DNA of 32,272 nucleotides from a virus. Below are positions 11,827 through 32,272 of the stretch, one piece after another (within the stretch, counting starts at the first letter, position 1; every line of letters starts with the position of its first letter). The notes beneath the pieces were generated by a model. It did not search any database and was not told the DNA's origin. It saw only the letters and a list, made by a program, of their open reading frames with translations. Location: the IMG/VR virus record IMGVR_UViG_3300005096_000145, positions 1 through 32,272 of that record. The stretch is one strand, 5' to 3'. A program made the position numbers and the translations under genes.

Positions 11827-12744
11827 TTAGTTCCTAATCTCTGGCACAACGTATACAGAGCCACTTTCTTGATCGTAACCCTCGGCTAAATCAACGGCCT
11901 CTCTGGCATCTGCTTTCAAGTCTCTACGCTCACTTGCTGATAACCCGCCAAATCGCCATGAAAGGCGGTAGGCAAGGCTAATGACTAATGCCTCAAGGTT
12001 CTCAGAGGGAATGTCAATAGAATCTGTCGCAGCGTCTAAATCATCAATTGTTGCCTGATAAACAAGTTCAATCGTCCATTCAGCAACCGCAGCAGCATCC
12101 GGTGACAGCCAGATATAAAACGTACCGTTGTTTATTGTTGGGTCATAATGATATGAAATTGGCGCACCATTTGTTGCCTTGTTTGGTAGCGACTCATACT
12201 CATTTCGCGTCATTGCATTAACAGTAATCTCGTCGCCAGCCGAACCTTTTCTATTGCACTTAAGAATCTTCATCGGACGCGGTGCTGAGACATCTGCATC
12301 GGTTATCTCGTAAGCCTCTGTGCCGACAGTGAATATATCTGATGCAAGTGCCAGTTGAGTCGTGGAAGTTACAGCAGAGATGGTTGTAGACGTGCCTGCG
12401 GTAGTATTTTTAACAGTATCACCAATCTGAACGCTATCAGTATTGAAATTAGCTCCTGAGTCTACTAGATTATTAGCAGATAGTGATGTTGCATTGCCCG
12501 CACTTTTCTGACCAATCTTATAAATAACCTGATTTTCTATCAAATTTATTGTTGCTGTCTTTCGCTTCCAGATGTTTAGCTTCTGTTGCAAGGCTTTCAG
12601 CATGATATTTAACGTGACAAGGGCGGTTGCTGAGTCTTCCGGCTCTAAATCCTCGCCACCATGAGCAACACCAATCATCTCAAAAGCCGAAGTCATTAAT
12701 TCCGTACCATTGAGCGTATAATTTGTTGAGTTAGATAAAGGCAT
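11827..12744 (-). CDS. Head-tail adaptor, P22 gp4-like
   Basis: A 305-aa protein. The N-terminus (LMTSAFEMIGV...LEPEDSATALVTLNIMLKALQQK) matches the start of gp4-like adaptor proteins, where a helix A..L.G.......L...D...L..LN.ML..W is conserved. The C-terminus has the ENLEALVISLAYRLSW and SASERRDLKADAREAVDLAE helices of the family. These proteins form the ring under the portal that receives the hub. P22 gp4 is about 165 aa; here a beta insertion (residues about 80-150, with a KNTTAGTST and GTEAYEI stretch) lengthens it. The gp10-like hub has a similar insertion. The gene follows a 60-base AT-rich gap and has no obvious SD before its ATG, which is unusual for this genome. Confidence 0.75.
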   Translation of the reverse strand: MPLSNSTNYTLNGTELMTSAFEMIGVAHGGEDLEPEDSATALVTLNIMLKALQQKLNIWKRKTATINLIENQVIYKIGQKSAGNATSLSANNLVDSGANFNTDSVQIGDTVKNTTAGTSTTISAVTSTTQLALASDIFTVGTEAYEITDADVSAPRPMKILKCNRKGSAGDEITVNAMTRNEYESLPNKATNGAPISYHYDPTINNGTFYIWLSPDAAAVAEWTIELVYQATIDDLDAATDSIDIPSENLEALVISLAYRLSWRFGGLSASERRDLKADAREAVDLAEGYDQESGSVYVVPEIRN

Positions 12745-12804
12745 TATTATTTATTTTATACATATTTTAATTATCGCTAATCATATAAGTTTTTAATGGA
12801 AATT

Positions 12805-14703
12805 TTATACCGGGGTATGAACCGTTGTGCCACTGCCATCTACCCATACAGAGCCAGCCGATCCGCCAGCCGCCCAGACGTTTTGCAGATTCGTAGAATC
12901 CCAAACTTGTTGCCCAGCCTGTTTTTGTAGCGTATTTACTGCTGCCGTTATATCTTTAAAATTAGTGGCAGTTTCAGTTCTGATATTCTCAACAAGCCTA
13001 ACGCCGTTTCCTATATTGCCATTGCGGAACCCCACTACTTCTGTGATCGCCGCACCTTCCAGGCTAATTTCATTTCCTGTAATTCCTGCAACAGTATTAC
13101 CTTTTACGGAATCATACCCCGCCTGTAACCGAATACCTATACCAGCAAAGGGCGTAGAAACCTCTATAATATTATCGTCAATAACTAATCCACTAGCAGT
13201 TGTATCTTGATGGATAGCACCGCTTGGAGCTTCATTTTGATCTAAAAGTTTATTCCTTAAAATCTTTGCGTTTGCCCCACTGATGTGAATAGATCTGCGA
13301 TACCCTTTGTCAAAAGTTATGTCTGAGACTTCGCAGTTTTCTCCTACTACTTGCACGGCAGAATCTGCGCTGGCTGATTTAACAACTCCCCCAGTCATTA
13401 CACAGTTTGGGGCGTTGAGCATAGCAGCCGTACTACACGCGTCTACGTCAATATCTGAAATCGTAATATGACCGGTGTTAGTTGAATGCACATATACCAA
13501 TGGGAGATTTACGGTTGTTGTTGATATGTTTCTAAATATCGGCCTTACGATATTAAGCTGTGTTTCTTGTGAGTTACTTGGTACGTCTATAACGCCACGG
13601 GTAATATTATTATCAGCGCCGTCGAAGTGTGGATCTATAATCTTTCCTGAAATAGCGCCCCAATCAATAGCCCCCTTAACGTTGTCATAAAACTTACATG
13701 AGATCGACACTATATTTCTTGGCTGCTTTACACTAGATACAAGCAAGCCATATCCAGCATTTCCGCTGAATTTCGTATTGATAAGCAAACCATCTTCAAT
13801 GCTATACAATGGGTTTGCTGCGTTACTCTCTAGATCTATGCCCGCTTCCGGCGCAGTTCCGTTTGTATTTGAGAAATCACCGCCAAGAAATATAAAATTA
13901 TTCGCTTCGATTATTGAACAGCCCTGCCTATAGCAATTATCATTTTCTTGATTCTCAATGCTAAAATGACTTGAGTGCGTAGTTTTATCAGATGGCGTGG
14001 ATGATGCGATATAAATTCCGTCTACAACTGCATTTTTACTCTTACAGTTAGTGAATTTGAAGTAGTGGCAATCACGTATCCATATATTATGAGCTGAAAC
14101 TTCAGCAGGAGTTCTGTTTGTTCTATTACCATCAACAGTAATTCCGTTAACAGAAAACTGACTGCATCTGGTTAATACGAATAATTCATTTCCACTAACA
14201 ACAGCAAAACCATTAGCGGCTTTTAATGTTCCGCCTCCTGTAATATTAAAACCTGACTTATCAGTAAATGAAACACTGCCACTAATCAAATACTCTTTAT
14301 TAAGCACAAAGTCAGTATTGTTAGGCAACGCAGTCGCTGCGGCCTGTAATGCTGCGGTGTCATCTGTTACGCCGTCTCCAATAGCTCCATACTCTTCAGG
14401 GTCAATGCTTGCCTCATTATCTTTAATCCATGCTTCTGAACCATCACCGCCAATAGGTATAAATACTTTTCCGCAGTATAATATGCCGCCATCATCTGCA
14501 TAGGCTCCTGGAGCTGCACCTGTAACACCACGCCAGAGGCTTCCCTTACCATCAGCGCTTTTAATCGCTAAGTTAAGCCCGTCAACTGGTTGTAATAATG
14601 CAGCAGCGGCTTTATCTGCAACAGAGTATGCCATTCTGTTTACGTCATTAAGCCATGAAGAATCTATACTTCCTGCGCCATCTACAAAAGTTGTATCAGC
14701 CAT
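12805..14703 (-). CDS. Tailspike, beta-helix (pectate-lyase-like) protein
   Basis: A 632-aa protein. The N-terminus (TTFVDGAGSIDSSWLNDVNRMAY) is the virion-attachment motif common in podovirus fibres and spikes. Residues about 100-130 contain DPEEYGAIGDGVTDDTAALQ, the hallmark start of a right-handed beta-helix of the pectate-lyase superfamily. It is followed by many short repeats with N-rich turns such as GNRTNRTP and ISDIDVDACS. The C-terminus (QQVWDSTNLQNVWAAGG) is a short ending shared with other phage spikes. Such spikes bind and usually cleave capsular or O-antigen polysaccharide, but the substrate cannot be read from sequence. It lies upstream of the adaptor gene, not at the end of the tail module as in P22. 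Confidence 0.9.
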   Translation of the reverse strand: MADTTFVDGAGSIDSSWLNDVNRMAYSVADKAAAALLQPVDGLNLAIKSADGKGSLWRGVTGAAPGAYADDGGILYCGKVFIPIGGDGSEAWIKDNEASIDPEEYGAIGDGVTDDTAALQAAATALPNNTDFVLNKEYLISGSVSFTDKSGFNITGGGTLKAANGFAVVSGNELFVLTRCSQFSVNGITVDGNRTNRTPAEVSAHNIWIRDCHYFKFTNCKSKNAVVDGIYIASSTPSDKTTHSSHFSIENQENDNCYRQGCSIIEANNFIFLGGDFSNTNGTAPEAGIDLESNAANPLYSIEDGLLINTKFSGNAGYGLLVSSVKQPRNIVSISCKFYDNVKGAIDWGAISGKIIDPHFDGADNNITRGVIDVPSNSQETQLNIVRPIFRNISTTTVNLPLVYVHSTNTGHITISDIDVDACSTAAMLNAPNCVMTGGVVKSASADSAVQVVGENCEVSDITFDKGYRRSIHISGANAKILRNKLLDQNEAPSGAIHQDTTASGLVIDDNIIEVSTPFAGIGIRLQAGYDSVKGNTVAGITGNEISLEGAAITEVVGFRNGNIGNGVRLVENIRTETATNFKDITAAVNTLQKQAGQQVWDSTNLQNVWAAGGSAGSVWVDGSGTTVHTPV

Positions 14704-24231: not shown

Positions 24232-24666
24232 TTATGTTAGTTCTATTCGCTCGCCGTCTTCAGTGATTATATACGCACTGTCTATACCGGCGTCATTGCT
24301 TGAGAATACCCGGGTCTCATAGATATGAGATGACTCTTGCCGTAGCTTCTGAGGTATATACTTTACGTATGAATACGATGACGGGTCTACCAGGTATGCG
24401 CCACGCCCTATTGACTTGATAAGACCTGATTCGCATATCCTGCGTAAATATTGATTAGCCAGGTTTAGCATGTTCTTTGACTCGCACCCTATAGACTTCA
24501 TTATCATTATCTTGTCGTGCGGGGCTAGTATAACTAGCGTCTGCTTCGTGTCGCTGTCGTACTCGATCATTGATAGCAGGTGCGCAAGGAACATAGTCTG
24601 CTTATTAGCGATCTGGCTTAACTTGGCTATATGTTCGTATGAGCACATGAATGGTTTTCTGCTCAT
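24232..24666 (-). CDS. RepL-like winged-helix protein
   Basis: A 144-aa protein. The middle and C-terminal half (NLANQYLRRICESGLIKSIGRGAYLVDP) fits a winged helix like those of plasmid RepL and related phage proteins. There a recognition helix is followed by L...GLI....RG.Y.V.P. The start (LAHLLSMIEYDSDTKQTLVILAP) corresponds to the preceding helices. It could be a replication initiator, or a repressor or activator. Its promoter is striking: TATAAT lies seven bases before the ATG with no SD, so the mRNA may be leaderless or start translation at Met7 (24648). Inverted repeats upstream may be its own operators. It is followed at 27 bases by the 40-aa membrane peptide. Confidence 0.6.
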   Translation of the reverse strand: MSRKPFMCSYEHIAKLSQIANKQTMFLAHLLSMIEYDSDTKQTLVILAPHDKIMIMKSIGCESKNMLNLANQYLRRICESGLIKSIGRGAYLVDPSSYSYVKYIPQKLRQESSHIYETRVFSSNDAGIDSAYIITEDGERIELT

Positions 24667-24672
24667 ACGGTC

Positions 24673-24699
24673 ATTATATCAAATGTAACGGTTAGTTAC
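24673..24699 (-). promoter_or_regulatory. Promoter and operator-like repeat before RepL-like gene
   Basis: On the minus strand a perfect TATAAT (24673-24678) lies just upstream of the ATG at 24666. Immediately before it is an inverted repeat, GTAAC and GTTAC with a 5-base spacer (24685-24699), covering the -10 to -35 interval. The -35 box is poor, which would suit an activated or extended promoter. The layout suggests autoregulation and a very short or absent 5' leader. Confidence 0.5.
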
Positions 24700-24740
24700 T
24701 ATTTTGTTGTAGATAATAAGCCTGTATGTAGAATCGCATC

Positions 24741-24769
24741 TGTATAGCTTATTGATCGTTAGCTATACA
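24741..24769. repeat. 9-bp inverted repeat TGTATAGCT / AGCTATACA
   Basis: Two perfect 9-bp arms separated by 11 bases lie about 75 bases upstream of the RepL-like start codon. No T-run follows on either strand, so a protein-binding palindrome, for example for the RepL-like protein itself, is more likely than a terminator. It is part of the 635-base stretch from 24667 to 25301, which has no firmly supported gene. Confidence 0.55.
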
Positions 24770-24826
24770 TTTGAGCTACCCCTTAGAATCATGTACTTAC
24801 AGAAGTTTACAATACTATATAGATAC

Positions 24827-24859
24827 TGCCGGGTTGACCAACAACCGGCACATGTTTTT
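24827..24859 (+). terminator. GC-rich hairpin with T-run (plus strand)
   Basis: TGCCGG-G-TTG pairs with CAACCGGCA (one bulged G) around a short loop, followed by CATG and TTTTT at 24855-24859. It has the shape of a rho-independent terminator on the plus strand, yet no plus-strand gene is recognised to its left. It may end a short untranslated RNA or be a structural element. Confidence 0.35.
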
Positions 24860-24916
24860 CCTTCGCTTGTTACCCGTACGTGGCACATATTAACTAAGTA
24901 GCTGATTTAATTGAAT

Positions 24917-25018
24917 ATGATGATTATGCTACCTCAGATGCTTAGTGTGCAAGGATATGATGATTGCCTAGCTATGGGCGGTGCAGAGCCTATTGTGTGG
25001 GTGTGTGGGAGGAAGTGA
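24917..25018 (+). CDS. Possible 33-aa ORF, plus strand
   Basis: This frame begins MMIMLPQMLSVQGYDDCLAM and ends with IVWVCGRK. The QGYDDC segment resembles small phage proteins with a G.DDC.(I/V)G motif. No good SD precedes it. It runs against the flanking genes and may be a remnant. It is followed by the 21-aa frame after one base. Confidence 0.25.
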   Translation: MMIMLPQMLSVQGYDDCLAMGGAEPIVWVCGRK

Positions 25019-25019
25019 T

Positions 25020-25085
25020 ATGTATTCTGATATATTTGCTACTGTCTTGAATAGACTACAAACAAGCTACAGGCCGCATTCTTAG
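25020..25085 (+). CDS. Possible 21-aa ORF with strong SD, plus strand
   Basis: The sequence GGGAGGAAGTGAT precedes the ATG, an excellent ribosome binding site. The peptide begins MYSDIFATVLNRLQTSYR. A good SD before such a short frame suggests a leader peptide or a decayed gene. No family is known. Confidence 0.3.
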   Translation: MYSDIFATVLNRLQTSYRPHS

Positions 25086-25102
25086 TGCCTATTGGTTAAT
25101 CA

Positions 25103-25237
25103 ATGAATAATGTACAAAGCGCGCTATCAATATGTTTAGCTGTATTGCTATGGGTTATAAATGGTTGCTGTAGCAGTATTCGTGGCTTACTACAGATGGA
25201 AGTAATTATTTATGCACTAGGTTGTGTTGCGCTTTAA
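25103..25237 (+). CDS. Possible 44-aa hydrophobic ORF, plus strand
   Basis: This frame begins MNNVQSALSICLAVLLWVIN, with a potential membrane helix at 8-20, and ends IIYALGCVAL. No SD is seen. It lies in the same orientation as the two frames before it and ends 65 bases before the antisense end of the small terminase gene. Low confidence; the rest of 24667-25301 shows only repeats. Confidence 0.2.
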   Translation: MNNVQSALSICLAVLLWVINGCCSSIRGLLQMEVIIYALGCVAL

Positions 25238-25301
25238 TAGTGGATAGAGATATTTACGGTATATTGGTAGTCCTGCTAACAATCCTTTGTTGTATTCCTT
25301 G

Positions 25302-25853
25302 TTACCGCGTTCTGTCAGGGTCTGGCGCTGTTTGGCCTGCTCTATGTCGTGGAGTTGCTTTCTTATTGAGTAGTTCAATGGAGTTCTTTGCCTTCAGCAT
25401 GGTTAATCTCGTCCTGGAGTCTTTGTATATCACCATCTCAATGTCGTCAATGGTCTGTACTTTCTTCACTGATACGTTGGGGAATAGGTCTTTTGTTAGG
25501 GTTGTAGCAACTTGGGCTTTGACTGATTCGCTTTCCGCTTCTTCGCATAGCTTCATAAGAGTGGTCAGCCCCATCCTGCGCGCATCCTTTGCTTTCTTTA
25601 GCAATTCAGCATCTATCTGATCTCTTAGCCTTTCGTGCATCTCATAGGCGCGCTGACGGGTTGCGGTAAGTTGTTCTGTCAATTCTGCCGACTCAATAGC
25701 GTATCTCATCAGGTCTATTTTCTTTGCGAAGGGGTATTCTAGCGCGGAATCTATGTAGTGCTGATCTAATGCGCCAGTCTTTATCCGATAACCACTATCT
25801 GCCATGCAGTCTTGGCCTTTTGGCTTGCTTTTGTCGATCTTTGCTTTTGTCAC
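25302..25853 (-). CDS. Probable terminase small subunit
   Basis: A 183-aa protein if the GTG at 25853 is used. It has AAGG nine bases upstream, while the longer TTG start at 25925 lies in promoter sequence and ATG 25805 (MADSGYRIKTG) lacks an SD. It is helical and basic-acidic, with the segment YPFAKKIDLMRYAIESAELTEQ and a central coiled coil (QRAYEMHERLRDQIDAELLKKA). The C-terminal part (VAKVQTIDD-like VKKVQTIDDIEMVIY) is where small terminases carry their oligomerisation and TerL-contact strands. It lies upstream of the terL cluster in the same direction, but about 2 kb away. No other terS candidate exists here. The call rests on composition and context rather than a firm motif. Confidence 0.5.
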   Translation of the reverse strand: MTKAKIDKSKPKGQDCMADSGYRIKTGALDQHYIDSALEYPFAKKIDLMRYAIESAELTEQLTATRQRAYEMHERLRDQIDAELLKKAKDARRMGLTTLMKLCEEAESESVKAQVATTLTKDLFPNVSVKKVQTIDDIEMVIYKDSRTRLTMLKAKNSIELLNKKATPRHRAGQTAPDPDRTR

Positions 25854-25893
25854 GTTCGGCAACCTTTGCGGGCTTATTAAATACCTGTGATTT

Positions 25894-25921
25894 ATTTTAC
25901 CACATAAGTTATTGATTACAA
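25894..25921 (-). promoter_or_regulatory. Leftward promoter for probable terS
   Basis: On the minus strand TTGTAA (25916-25921), a 16-base spacer and TAAAAT (25894-25899) preceded by TGG, an extended -10 feature. It lies about 40 bases upstream of the preferred GTG start and back to back with the rightward promoter. Confidence 0.45.
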
Positions 25922-25962
25922 ACAATCTGGTTAATTAGTTTGGTTATATTGATGGATTCTTG

Positions 25963-25991
25963 TTGATACTTTGTGCAGTTATTGTTATTGT
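25963..25991 (+). promoter_or_regulatory. Rightward promoter of the small-gene operon
   Basis: TTGATA (25963-25968), a 17-base spacer and TATTGT (25986-25991) match five and four of six consensus positions. It is placed about 45 bases before the first plus-strand gene, which has GAGAGG as SD. It probably drives all seven genes to 27872. Confidence 0.55.
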
Positions 25992-26034
25992 TTAGTCATA
26001 GTCAATCACGGCTTAATTAAGAGAGGTTAGATAG

Positions 26035-26328
26035 ATGTTTAAATCAAGATCAACCCAGCAGCATGAACAGGCAATGGCTTTGGTTGGCATGGTCGGCTCA
26101 ATTGCATCAGCTACAGCAGGAATGAAAGGGCGGGGAGCTGAAAGAATGGAAGCTATGGCACAAGTTGTCGCGGCGCTTGGATTTGATTCAGCGTCGATAA
26201 AATCAGTTGAAATAAGCTGGCAGATATTTGACGGCGAATATTGCCCAACACTGAAAATGGAATCAACCGGCAACAATATAAAAGAAATAGTCCAAATTGA
26301 AAGAACGGCGGAGACTAGCCATGCTTAA
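26035..26328 (+). CDS. Hypothetical protein, first gene of rightward operon
   Basis: A 97-aa protein of unknown family. The N-terminal half is Ala, Gly and Met rich (MALVGMVGSIASATAGMKGRGAE) and the second half has an alternating beta-like pattern with VEISWQIFDGEYCPTLK. No signal peptide. The SD GAGAGG is 8 bases before the ATG. It overlaps the next gene by a few bases. As the promoter-proximal gene of a short early-looking operon, it is a candidate host-takeover or counter-defence protein, by position only. Confidence 0.65.
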   Translation: MFKSRSTQQHEQAMALVGMVGSIASATAGMKGRGAERMEAMAQVVAALGFDSASIKSVEISWQIFDGEYCPTLKMESTGNNIKEIVQIERTAETSHA

Positions 26329-27249: not shown

Positions 27250-27516
27250 ATGACTTACAAAGTATCTAAATGCTCAATATGCGACAAGCCTGTCACAGGG
27301 TATAAGTTTGCGCGAAACTCAGATGAATTACGCCAGATCAAACGTGACTACAAGCTAACGTCGAAAGATGTTGCGAAGCTGCTTTACTGTGAAGAGGTCA
27401 CGGTTATATCCTGGCTCCGTAATCCTGAATCTGAATCCAGTCGTAATATGCCAGATGGAAAGCTGAAGCATCTTAAACTGGCTTTGCGCGGTAGAAAGAA
27501 GGTGAAATTATGTTAG
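27250..27516 (+). CDS. Helix-turn-helix DNA-binding protein
   Basis: An 88-aa protein. An N-terminal C8-x2-C11 pair (CSICDKPVTGYKF) is followed by a Cro/XRE-type helix-turn-helix at about 28-60 (IKRDYKLTSKDVAKLLYCEEVTVISWLRNP). The phrase L...DVA.LL....VTV..WL is typical of phage transcription regulators. The C-terminus is basic. It starts just after the previous stop (TAGGATG) and overlaps the next gene. It may regulate this operon or the divergent leftward promoter; both are inferred. Confidence 0.7.
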   Translation: MTYKVSKCSICDKPVTGYKFARNSDELRQIKRDYKLTSKDVAKLLYCEEVTVISWLRNPESESSRNMPDGKLKHLKLALRGRKKVKLC

Positions 27517-27927: not shown

Positions 27928-28506
27928 CTACCCACCTGTGATATGTCTATTTGGACACATCCAGCAGCTAGACCGTGGCGGCGTTGGCAGTCCGTAATCT
28001 TCAACTTTCTTAATTGCATCAGCCCTTGTCATCCTTTTGTTTATCAATGGATAAACGTCCTGCCATTTTCCTGCTTCTTGCTTACAGCGATGCATTTCAT
28101 CTATTGTGAACCCTATCCACGTATTCCATTGTTCTTTTGGAAATGCATCATTGGCATAGCGGCGAATAACGGCTCTCTTCCACTCACTTGAGCAGTATAA
28201 TTTTAACTTGCTCATTTCGCCCGAAAAGGCAGTGAACGCAGGGATTAGCAAGGTGTCTTTGTCTTTCCCGCCGTACAGCCCGACCTTTGAGTACTCACTA
28301 GCTTTCACTCTGACCAACTCAACACCTTTTTCCATTAACGTGGGGTAGATATATTCGTCCATGTACTTCCATGTGCTAGAAGCTTCATAGCCAGTATCAG
28401 CAATTAAACACAAGTCGGGCTTTGGTAGTTCACCATTTGCAATCATCACGGCAATACAACAACTTTGCGTGCCGCCGCCACTTGACCATAGTTGTTTTCT
28501 TTCCAT
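27928..28506 (-). CDS. PAPS-reductase-like protein, C-terminally short
   Basis: A 192-aa protein of the phosphoadenosine phosphosulfate reductase / ATP-pyrophosphatase superfamily. Residues 9-15 SGGGTQS form the PP-loop, and LCLIADTGYEASSTWKYMDEYI is the family's second region. KLYCSSEWKRAVIRRY and a final CWMCPNR block are also typical of phage members. Phage PAPS-reductase-like proteins are related to DndC and have an unknown, possibly DNA-modifying, role. ATG 28506 is preferred (GGAGGT four bases upstream) over the TTG at 28518. In members I remember, CPNR is followed by about 40-60 more residues; here it stops after HITGG, next to the convergent operon end. Confidence 0.75.
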   Translation of the reverse strand: MERKQLWSSGGGTQSCCIAVMIANGELPKPDLCLIADTGYEASSTWKYMDEYIYPTLMEKGVELVRVKASEYSKVGLYGGKDKDTLLIPAFTAFSGEMSKLKLYCSSEWKRAVIRRYANDAFPKEQWNTWIGFTIDEMHRCKQEAGKWQDVYPLINKRMTRADAIKKVEDYGLPTPPRSSCWMCPNRHITGG

Positions 28507-28544
28507 CTCTACCTCCAATTATAGCATTTTATAACCTTACGTTA

Positions 28545-28831: not shown

Positions 28832-29116
28832 TCAAATTACCTCAATGCGTTGTACCAAACTCCGCGCCAAAGGGTCACGAATCACCCTTTCTTTCTTCGT
28901 CAATATCCGCACCGCCTTTGCTGCCTCTGTTATCTCACAGCGATCTAATCCGACAACCTGGCGAAGCGTTATCCTTGCGCCGAGCTGCTTTAGCTTATAA
29001 TACCGCCTAATTGCATAGTCTGTCTTGCCGGTTATGTTCGTCCAGCCAGTAACTCCGTGGGTTATTAGTTCGCCGTTGTCGTCTTTTGTGGTGATGGATA
29101 TTGGCGTTCTGCTCAT
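28832..29116 (-). CDS. Hypothetical basic protein next to helicase
   Basis: A 94-aa protein, not assigned. The middle (GWTNITGKTDYAIRRYYKLKQLGARITLRQVVG) may form helix-turn-helix-like helices and the C-terminus is basic (KKERVIRDPLARSLVQRI). Such small proteins with a .GK..Y.IRRYY. stretch are seen in phage early regions, where they may recognise DNA. The ATG overlaps the helicase stop as ATGA. DNA binding is an inference from composition only. Confidence 0.6.
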   Translation of the reverse strand: MSRTPISITTKDDNGELITHGVTGWTNITGKTDYAIRRYYKLKQLGARITLRQVVGLDRCEITEAAKAVRILTKKERVIRDPLARSLVQRIEVI

Positions 29117-30594
29117 TTGCTTCTCCTGTTTGCATATTTTATCGCCTTATGCGTCATAAAGTTTTGGAATTCAGGCACGTTTCCGCCAGCTACTTTCTGC
29201 ATGGCGTTCGGCCATACGCCCAGATAATCACGATAGGCATTTGAGGCCCAGCCGGTTTTGTATCCCTTCTTTTGAGCGTATCCGAGTGCGGCTGAATAAA
29301 ATGCTTGCTTTTCTGATTTACTCATAGTCTTGTTTCTTTTCTGCAAGGCGGATTGTTTTATTTTCACAAGTTCACCTTTAACCTGTTCTACCCCATGCTG
29401 AACTGTTGGCACAAACCCACATGCCGGACATTTAAACTCGCTATGCAAACAAGTGCATTGCTGGCATGGCTTTGGTGATTTAAGTTCTTTCTCTTTTTCT
29501 TCTTTCTTTTTCTGTAGTTTGTCCTTGCTATCATCGTTAAATTCATCTGGCATTTCATCATCTGGAAATCCTAAACGGGATATATTTCCAGAGTGATCTA
29601 ATATCAACGCATCACGACCACATGGCGATATACGAAGCACACGGCCTAAAATCTGCACATGAAGCATCAGGCTTTTTGTCGGTCTAGCTATAATTAAACA
29701 GGTAGCAGATGGGCAATCAAACCCTTTCGTTAATACTCCAACCGATGAAATGATGTTTATTTTACCCTTTTTGAAATCGCCGATAATCTCAGCCCTTTCC
29801 TCTTTATCCGTGTACCCATCGATATGTGCAGCGACTACACCACGACTTACAAACTCTTCAACAATGGCTTTTGAGTGGGCGACATTTACACCGAAACAAA
29901 TAGTCTGCCTGTTCTGTCCTAAATTAAGCCACGTATCAATAACCGAGCCTACAATCTTTTTATTGTTTATCTTTTTATCCAATTCATCAGGCTTATAATC
30001 ACCTGCTTGCACTTTCACGCCCTTCATGTCTGGCGTATATGGCGCAAACGCCTCATATCTACACAAGTGACCGGCATCCATTAACTGCCCTGCTGTTGCT
30101 CCAACTATTAAGTTTGAATACATTTTAGCCATGCCTTTAGCCCACGGCGTGGCCGATAAACCAATAACAGGGATTTCTTTAAACATACCTATCATTTCGT
30201 GGTGCGCCTGATATACACAATGCGCCTCGTCAATAATAATTAAAGTTGGTCTCCACTGTGGGTTCGCGTCAATAACATGCCAGCGCCTTGTGATCGTTTG
30301 AGCCGTTATTACCTGTATATCTTTTCTGTAATCTGTTTTTTCATGCTGGCCTTGTATAACGCCACAATCCAGCCCGAAGGAATTGAAAACACTGATTGTC
30401 TGCTCAACCAATTCCAGGTTATCGCAAACAAACCACATCCTCCCGCCTTTATCAAATGCTGATTTAGCTATGTTCGCAGCAATGATCGTTTTTCCGCTGC
30501 CCGTGCAAAGCTGTAATACTTGGTGTTTGTTTCCGCTAATAAACCCGCTTCTTAGTTCTTTTATGGCTGTTGTTTGATAATCACGTAATTCCAT
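29113..30594 (-). CDS. Superfamily 2 DNA helicase
   Basis: A 493-aa DExH helicase. Q motif and start RDYQTTAIKEL; Walker A TGSGKT (31-36); DEAH (122-125); SATP (147-150); motif VI QILGRVLR (314-321). A C-terminal four-Cys cluster lies at C377, C380, C389 and C392 (PCQQC ... CPACG), likely a zinc ribbon. This layout is common in phage helicases that act in replication or recombination, comparable in role to T4 UvsW. It is preceded, with a one-base overlap, by a primase-type zinc protein, which supports a role in replication initiation. Motifs are intact, so activity is expected. Confidence 0.9.
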   Translation of the reverse strand: MELRDYQTTAIKELRSGFISGNKHQVLQLCTGSGKTIIAANIAKSAFDKGGRMWFVCDNLELVEQTISVFNSFGLDCGVIQGQHEKTDYRKDIQVITAQTITRRWHVIDANPQWRPTLIIIDEAHCVYQAHHEMIGMFKEIPVIGLSATPWAKGMAKMYSNLIVGATAGQLMDAGHLCRYEAFAPYTPDMKGVKVQAGDYKPDELDKKINNKKIVGSVIDTWLNLGQNRQTICFGVNVAHSKAIVEEFVSRGVVAAHIDGYTDKEERAEIIGDFKKGKINIISSVGVLTKGFDCPSATCLIIARPTKSLMLHVQILGRVLRISPCGRDALILDHSGNISRLGFPDDEMPDEFNDDSKDKLQKKKEEKEKELKSPKPCQQCTCLHSEFKCPACGFVPTVQHGVEQVKGELVKIKQSALQKRNKTMSKSEKQAFYSAALGYAQKKGYKTGWASNAYRDYLGVWPNAMQKVAGGNVPEFQNFMTHKAIKYANRRSK

Positions 30595-31037
30595 TATCTT
30601 TTTCCATAAGAAATTTTAAGATTATTAAAAATCTTTCTAGCGACTTCCGTTTCTTTTTCCCACGGTTCAAGTGGCATTGCTGGTCGCTCTGCCGACTGAT
30701 TCTCATAACTAGCAACCCTATCGTTTATTATCAAAAGCATTACGTGTAAATCTATCTGTAATTCTTTCTGAGCCTGTAGCCTAGTTTTTTTGATTAAATA
30801 GGCTTTTTTTTCAGGCATGGATAACGTGTCTTTTTCCTTTAATCCCTCGTCTTCAAGTGCCTGCATTATTGTTCTAAATTCACACCCATGAGAAAAGCAC
30901 TTTGCTAGAAGCTTCCCATCCTGTGCATTCCATAATTTAAGATTTTTGTCGTTTCCGTTGTGACAAATTGACCTAACCCTGTATCCGTTTCCACTCTTTT
31001 TACCACCAAGTATGTTAGATATATTCTCTGCACTCAT
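30594..31037 (-). CDS. Stand-alone primase-type zinc-binding protein
   Basis: A 147-aa protein. Residues 25-60 (CHNGNDKNLKLWNAQDGKLL, then AKCFSHGCEFRTIMQAL) match the N-terminal zinc-binding domain of phage and bacterial primases. C25, H26, C47 and C52 (with H50) are candidate ligands. The usual catalytic TOPRIM or AEP primase domain is absent: the rest is helical, with QAQKELQIDLHVMLLIIND. The protein may recognise single-stranded DNA for a primase encoded elsewhere, or guide the adjoining helicase. It overlaps the helicase start by one base. Upstream lies the intergenic repeat region. Confidence 0.7.
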   Translation of the reverse strand: MSAENISNILGGKKSGNGYRVRSICHNGNDKNLKLWNAQDGKLLAKCFSHGCEFRTIMQALEDEGLKEKDTLSMPEKKAYLIKKTRLQAQKELQIDLHVMLLIINDRVASYENQSAERPAMPLEPWEKETEVARKIFNNLKISYGKR

Positions 31038-31295
31038 TTAAATAATCTTTCTGCCTGAAGTTTTTGTTTACTGTAATCGTAATCGTATTAGTTGTTGATA
31101 GAACCAAGCCGCATAGGGTTTAGCGTAATGTTAAATCAAGCCTGTGACTAATGAAAAAAATCTATCGTTAATTATAAGTAAATTTTATCGACTATATAAA
31201 ACAACGACTTATAACTATTAGTCATAAGTAAAACTTATACCTATAGCTTGCTCATAAGTAAATTCTATAAGGATAAATTATCCATAACCTGCAAA
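31038..31295. other. AT-rich intergenic region, no gene seen
   Basis: This stretch between the primase-type gene and the 22-aa frame has no supported coding region on either strand. It holds the ATAAGT repeat cluster, a GGATAA-A-TTATCC palindrome (31271-31283), an A-run at 31154-31160 and a short tandem CGTAAT repeat near 31078-31087. Its AT content is visibly higher than in the neighbouring genes. It may be the control region of the helicase operon or a replication origin. Confidence 0.55.
31171..31283. repeat. ATAAGT half-site cluster (operators or iterons)
   Basis: ATAAGT or its complement ACTTAT occurs at 31174-31179, 31208-31213, 31224-31229, 31233-31238 and 31254-31259. Three copies share the longer unit ATAAGTAAA, and ATAAGT-AAA-ACTTAT (31224-31238) is a perfect palindrome. 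A minus-strand TATAAT (31171-31176) overlaps the first copy. A sixth half-site lies at 31363. Regular half-sites over a promoter suggest repressor operators; an origin with iterons is the alternative. Confidence 0.65.
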
Positions 31296-31364
31296 TCAAC
31301 GAAAGCAAACAGCAATTGCTATGATGGCGAGCTGTGTTTTCATGTTGCAGTTGCATTTATTCAT
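31296..31364 (-). CDS. 22-aa hydrophobic peptide, coupled ORF
   Basis: The frame begins MNKCNCNMKTQLAIIAIAVC and ends FR. AAGGAG lies 4 bases before its ATG, and the ATG overlaps the TGA of the 97-aa gene as ATGA, so translation is quite likely. It has a short hydrophobic core and two or three cysteines. It may be a small membrane peptide, a leader, or the remnant of a signal-peptide gene. Confidence 0.45.
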   Translation of the reverse strand: MNKCNCNMKTQLAIIAIAVCFR

Positions 31365-31654
31365 AAGTCTCCTTCCCATATTTCATGTTTATTTCGCATG
31401 GCGGCTAGTATTAGCTTTCCAACAAACTCAACAGCACCATCGTAATTCCCCCACCCATTCTCAGGGTTCATAGCCTCAAGCTTGTCAATATTGTCTTCCA
31501 TGTGTTCGCGCAATTTACGAAGAACAGGAATAGACTCTTCGCCAGACAGGCCATAGTGTTCTCTTATCCCTTTCTCATAGCAGTCATACCACATATCTGC
31601 CACGTTATATGTGTAGTTAAAGCTTTCACTTCCTATGCCCATATCGTAGCTCAT
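31361..31654 (-). CDS. Hypothetical small protein
   Basis: A 97-aa acidic protein (start ATG at 31654, which overlaps the previous TGA by one base; GTG 31657 is the alternative, with GGGGG upstream). It contains MGIGSESFNYTYNVADMWYDCYEKG, a phrase of small phage proteins with a FN.T.N....W motif, and VEFVGKLILAAMRNK near the end. That family has no known function. It probably belongs to the same early operon as its neighbours. Confidence 0.6.
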   Translation of the reverse strand: MSYDMGIGSESFNYTYNVADMWYDCYEKGIREHYGLSGEESIPVLRKLREHMEDNIDKLEAMNPENGWGNYDGAVEFVGKLILAAMRNKHEIWEGDL

Positions 31655-31899
31655 CACTCACCCCCCAGTACGCTATCAATGGCTTCATGGGTCTCATGCA
31701 GCGTTATCAGTATTCCGCTTGAGCATCCAATATTACCCTTTGCTGATGCTCTCAAGTTGCCGATTGCCGCCTTCAACCTCTGGCGGTCTGATCTGCGTAT
31801 CAGGGCGATGATTCTCTCTGCTTTTTGTTCACGATATAAACGATATGATTTAGACTCTATTAATTCGACTATTCCCTCTATAAGCTCTTCATATTTCAT
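31654..31899 (-). CDS. Hypothetical helical protein
   Basis: An 81-aa protein, mostly helical (EELIEGIVELIESKSYRLYRE, then ERIIALIRRSDRQRLKAAIG). Basic and acidic residues are mixed, without Cys clusters or membrane segments. Start and stop overlap both neighbours (ATGA upstream, TGATG downstream), a sign of translational coupling. No family recognised. Confidence 0.55.
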   Translation of the reverse strand: MKYEELIEGIVELIESKSYRLYREQKAERIIALIRRSDRQRLKAAIGNLRASAKGNIGCSSGILITLHETHEAIDSVLGGE

Positions 31900-32210
31900 T
31901 GCTTATCTCCTGCTGTTGATTCGATGAAACTACGGAAGGCTTGTTTGATAGTTATGCTGCGTCTAACTACATTTCCTACCATGCCGCACGACTGCCATAT
32001 ACTTACTTCAAAATTAGGCGCGCGTATAAGCTTCTCAACCACCTCTGCTGCCTGATTTAAGTCTTCATACGGATCATATTCACGCGGTATAGGCTCATTA
32101 GGAAAAACCACAGATACCATCGCCATGCTGATAGTGACTTCATACCCCATGATGCTTGCACAGTGTTCATTGAATGCCTGTTTATTCATTGTTTCGCCTT
32201 TATTGCTCAT
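31896..32210 (-). CDS. Hypothetical protein
   Basis: A 104-aa protein. The first ATG (32210) has GGAGGG about 9 bases upstream; an in-frame ATG at 32189 (MNKQAFNEHCASIMGYEVT) is also possible. A EPIPREYDPYEDLNQAAEVVEKL segment is followed by a beta stretch FEVSIWQSC and a helix IKQAFRSFIES. This layout (ASIMGYE ... YDP..DLN...EVVEKL) occurs in unnamed phage early proteins. It overlaps the next gene by ATGA. Confidence 0.6.
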   Translation of the reverse strand: MSNKGETMNKQAFNEHCASIMGYEVTISMAMVSVVFPNEPIPREYDPYEDLNQAAEVVEKLIRAPNFEVSIWQSCGMVGNVVRRSITIKQAFRSFIESTAGDKQ

Positions 32211-32211
32211 C

Positions 32212-32272
32212 TTATTTTCCCTCCATAGTTCTAATGGCTAATTCAATTGACGCGACATCACCGGCAAGCCCC
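32212..32272 (-). CDS. 3' end of a gene cut by the window edge
   Basis: An open frame enters from the right edge and ends LAGDVASIELAIRTMEGK before TAA at 32212. Its stop lies one base before the ATG of the 104-aa gene, and the SD of that gene sits inside its last codons. The start is outside the window and the family cannot be told. Confidence 0.5.
   Translation of the reverse strand, partial: GLAGDVASIELAIRTMEGK

Follow-up and report, generated by a model that had tools for sequence, protein, structure and literature searches.

A repeated ATAAGT dyad ahead of the replication genes of a metagenomic phage: a putative operator cluster

The stretch of DNA analysed here, hereafter the window, is the whole of the virus record IMGVR_UViG_3300005096_000145 at its full length of 32,272 bases. 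It has no end repeat and is therefore probably incomplete; the record of one relative of its structural genes comprises 41,647 bases. A zinc-finger/helicase gene pair reads leftward from a non-coding gap that is flanked by two genes of the same strand and is, by gap ranking, the largest within the early leftward block:

29113–30594, minus strand: DEAD/SSL2-type helicase, second gene downstream of the gap (Pfam ResIII, 3.6e-26, and Helicase_C; phrog_16, DNA helicase, 3.8e-92)
30594–31037, minus strand: zinc-domain protein of the primase type, stand-alone, 147 aa; first gene downstream of the gap (weak N-terminal relatives)
31038–31360: non-coding, putative control region of 323 bp, 31% GC (69% AT), between two leftward genes (ORF list, gap ranking, composition)

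In other phages the helicase is followed by a primase-like gene, whose zinc-binding start the 147-aa protein resembles; a 43% relative of this protein is encoded in a prophage-like locus. The 147-aa protein is without the catalytic part and is therefore read as a stand-alone primase-type zinc domain, forming here a separate gene before the helicase, whereas in the related phages the domain is the start of the gene after it. The helicase shares 43% identity with that of Pseudomonas phage PS-1. Since CI and Cro genes immediately precede the homologous helicase genes of phages PS-1 and YA3, a helicase gene of this kind can be under the control of a lysogeny switch. The largest apparent gap of the whole record is a different one, at 24667–25301 (635 bases, between ORFs taken as genes).

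Within the gap, ATAAGT or its complement occurs at 31174 (+), 31207 (−), 31224 (+), 31233 (−) and 31254 (+). These half-sites make up one 15-bp dyad, present in three copies (A, B and C) of the same orientation within a stretch of ~95 bp, and one additional inverted half-site (D):

31171–31200, minus strand: TTTATA-18-TATAAT, a candidate promoter directed at the replication genes, with a match no better than chance
31174–31188, plus strand: putative operator copy A, ATAAGTAAATTTTAT, an imperfect dyad overlapping the minus-strand TATAAT
31207–31212, minus strand: half-site D, ACTTAT, inverted and single; its left arm and flank match the dyad, its right arm does not
31224–31238, plus strand: putative operator copy B, ATAAGTAAAACTTAT, a perfect dyad whose arms reach ~11 bp at 82%
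31254–31268, plus strand: putative operator copy C, ATAAGTAAATTCTAT, an imperfect dyad
31271–31283, no strand assigned: palindrome GGATAAATTATCC of the 6-1-6 type, at chance level by itself

The flank of half-site D also resembles that of the other copies (TAGTTATAAGT against TAGTCATAAGT). Start-to-start spacing is 50 bp from A to B and 30 bp from B to C. A weight matrix built from the three copies scores them at 17.8 (A), 20.4 (B) and 16.2 (C), and the best score outside the array, in the rest of the 32-kb record, does not exceed 12.7. The folding of the array as single-stranded DNA is unremarkable (z −1.44), and no Rfam RNA family scores above threshold in the region.

A reading of the letters alone (the sequence-only reading) had pointed to five clustered ATAAGT half-sites in both orientations and to a perfect palindrome of ATAAGT and its complement around AAA, set in AT-rich DNA next to helicase and primase-type genes; all of these are there, the palindrome being copy B and both genes lying downstream. 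The hexamer is not enriched over the record as a whole (27 observed against 22 expected), nor is it equally frequent throughout, the outcome which that reading had named as speaking against itself: 5 of the 27 sites fall in 86 bp. Shuffles of the gap preserving its dinucleotide content never reached five ATAAGT sites (0 of 2000), and any hexamer occurred five times in only 2 of 2000. A perfect 6-3-6 dyad accompanied by two more copies (at most 3 mismatches, within 100 bp) was likewise reached in 0 of 1500 shuffles. The record holds seven perfect palindromes of the 6-3-6 type and five of the 6-1-6 type, and a single palindrome therefore means little. The second palindrome described earlier, GGATAAATTATCC, exists where it was said to be, and as one of these five is at chance level. 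A functionless accident of AT-rich non-coding DNA would agree with the 31% GC of the gap, with the appearance of one palindrome alone in 16% of shuffles and with promoter-like matches not being enriched. We nevertheless hold such an accident to be very improbable against a repetition that the 2000 or 1500 shuffles never produced, and the clustering of half-site and dyad is confirmed as more than chance.

Is the same dyad found in other viruses? Viral contigs were scanned for two tandem copies of ATAAGT-N4-YTTAT at 5–35 bp from each other, which gave 79 loci, and for a control consisting of one palindrome only, of equal composition and also containing TAA, which gave 57. The dyad loci are wholly or partly non-coding in 64 of 79 cases, against 12 of 57 for the control (Fisher p 2e-12), and once loci with shared proteins are grouped, non-coding ones predominate in 32 of 39 dyad groups and in 6 of 23 control groups (p 3e-5). 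Gaps of 6–9 bp, corresponding to a period of 21–24 bp, occur at 42 of the 79 dyad loci and at 10 of the 57 control loci. Many of the tandem loci adjoin terminase genes, for example in cyanopodovirus-like contigs and in the fosmid phage AP013539, and others have replication-initiation or helicase-loader genes nearby; the named cyanophage isolates NATL1A-7, S-CBP1 and S-CBP3 are without the pair in the stretch examined. The array shares with the cyanopodovirus-like contigs L288 and L263 and with AP013539 the half-site, the non-coding position and the presence of two or more copies. Their dyads, unlike those of the array, mostly keep a regular period of 21–24 bp and often stand beside terminase genes; the array copies are spaced more irregularly than the typical tandem pair elsewhere, and the phages bearing dyads of that type are unrelated to this one.

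That the dyad recurs in non-coding viral DNA is a lead to a regulatory site that many phages may have in common; we do not call it special, because one control word is too few. The array may be no more than a further example of a widespread AT-rich operator sequence. A bolder proposal, which appears rather unlikely to us, is that tandem ATAAG-N5-CTTAT is a shared phage control element near terminase and replication genes, recognized by one widespread class of DNA-binding protein in unrelated phages of many environments, cyanopodoviruses included, and that the array would be one instance of it. No DNA-binding protein was found in common among the neighbours of the tandem arrays, which within families are terminase or replication genes. 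As separate observations, tandem dyads with a period of 21–24 bp recur outside genes in the unrelated contigs L288, L263, L298, L302, L012, L319, L108, L086, L066 and others, and in L012, L259, L310 and L319 tandem dyads stand beside the DnaA-box-like TTATCCACA.

The relation of the array to a promoter differs from that first described. The sequence-only reading had laid the perfect palindrome over a TATAAT box, which is in fact on the minus strand at 31176–31171 and overlaps the imperfect copy A rather than the perfect copy B. The region contains 1 promoter-like match where shuffles give a mean of 3.0. The dyads might be bound by a positive regulator or by a global factor of the host, and so activate or enhance a promoter downstream of them: the best −10 candidate has copies B and C 50–80 bp upstream of it, and in some other contigs tandem dyads with a period of 21–24 bp occur near TTGACA-like boxes. 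We find such a role improbable, given that the best −10 candidate is overlapped by copy A, an arrangement suited to repression, and that the tandem pair is found in 0 of 369 bacterial genomes of one class, a test of little power as the density in viral contigs is possibly too low for this to tell much. The earlier proposal of a repressor-controlled early promoter holds up in so far as the anatomy agrees best with a control region bound by a regulator; its promoter match is at chance level, and activator sites are inseparable from repressor sites by sequence.

Could the array be the replication origin of the phage, with an initiator binding the dyads as iterons and melting the adjoining AT-rich DNA? 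The O protein of phage lambda acts in this manner at the lambda origin, binding iteron dyads and melting the AT-rich DNA beside them. Like ori-lambda, the array combines several imperfect dyads with neighbouring AT-rich sequence and genes for replication. With 69% AT, the gap adjoins the helicase and primase-type genes, and its three to four dyads have centres 24–30 bp apart once half-site D is counted. Dyad arrays also lie near replication-initiation or helicase-loader genes in contigs L086, L046 and L112. The array differs from ori-lambda, however, in its irregular spacing, in not lying inside an initiator gene and in having no O-like initiator adjacent; no initiator gene adjoins it, and its neighbouring proteins match no initiator family. 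The origin alternative offered by the sequence-only reading gains nothing from GC skew, which follows the gene strand without a turn at the array, or from DnaA boxes, of which the gap has no exact copy, the 57 matches with at most 1 mismatch in the record being background. AT content in the record also peaks elsewhere, at about 12735–12810. An origin at this place is, on balance, unlikely.

What is observed is a repeated dyad, confined to one place in the record, in non-coding DNA, with replication genes just downstream. This anatomy gives most support to a control region bound by a regulator, and because the repeated dyads are confined to one non-coding gap before replication genes we consider that the array is probably an operator cluster for a dimeric regulator controlling the leftward replication genes. 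From the sequence we infer how such a cluster would work: a dimeric DNA-binding protein of the phage, most probably a helix-turn-helix protein of the Cro/CI type, would bind dyads A, B and C and perhaps also half-site D, in a cooperative manner, and the bound protein would block or tune a minus-strand promoter driving the zinc-finger/helicase replication operon from 31037 leftward. The operator reading is supported by the strongly non-coding placement of tandem dyad copies in unrelated viral contigs. It is weakened by a promoter not above chance and by the lack of a repressor gene adjoining the array.

Clusters of this type are familiar from lambdoid phages, in which the operators of lambda (OR and OL), P22 and 434 are bound by CI and Cro. 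Several similar dyads of the ~14–18-bp class within ~100 bp, as expected of a lambdoid-type operator cluster, are found here: three dyads of ~15 bp lie in less than 100 bp before early/replication genes, and one of them overlaps a −10 candidate. Unlike the lambdoid operators, which lie between the divergent cI and cro, the array lies between genes of the same direction; its centre spacing (50 and 30 bp) is wider, its sequence is unrelated, and no repressor gene was found beside it. A search of the literature found nothing on the dyad. The operator of SPbeta was rejected as the identity of the array, its consensus being CGAACATATGTTCG (PMC8270828). The array is an element of an ordinary, common type, with one side observation that lacks an explanation. 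If the operator reading is right, the array marks a control point for the transcription of replication genes in a metagenomic phage and provides a ready probe for finding its regulator.

Which protein would bind there? Both flanking genes are leftward and neither is repressor-like in Pfam, PHROGs or NCBIfam, and no divergent repressor/anti-repressor pair adjoins the array in this probably incomplete record. One candidate is encoded at a distance:

27250–27516, plus strand: 88-aa HTH protein, candidate regulator and putative binder (phrog_7950, transcriptional repressor, 3.7e-10)

Solved structures gave no match for this protein or for the 144-aa protein, and the product of 24232–24666, which the sequence-only reading had labelled 'RepL-like' and put forward beside the HTH protein as a possible binder, fits none of the RepL models of Pfam, PHROGs or NCBIfam. 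Upstream of the HTH gene, the weight-matrix scan of the record revealed no further operator. A distant homologue, with 33% identity to the HTH protein, is encoded in G001, a relative in structural genes; the 31.2 kb of G001 examined for clusters contain none of this kind, and over the whole G001 record the dyad pattern is at control level. Both results weaken the operator reading, and the gene for the binder may therefore lie outside this probably incomplete record.

Relatives of the region itself were sought at several levels. Phage isolates contain no DNA-level relatives of 30000–32272, and a direct search of viral contigs, phages and plasmids with the zinc-domain protein yielded none. An ATAAGT cluster precedes the helicase in 0 of the 33 loci examined, namely those with enough upstream sequence out of 80 helicase-related ones, and the structural-gene relatives G001, G002 and L126 are without helicase and array alike. 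We infer the function of the array, because no relative was found to keep the non-coding region 31038–31360.

Two further features of the window were recorded. The region 25780–26035 is a divergent start region between leftward genes and the rightward HTH operon, and includes one ATAAGT at 25904; the true start of the 207-aa ORF is probably ~120 bases further on than in the ORF list, which makes this intergenic region ~230 bases long. The early region also encodes, at 27928–28518, a phosphoadenosine phosphosulfate reductase-like protein (phrog_424, 3e-27).
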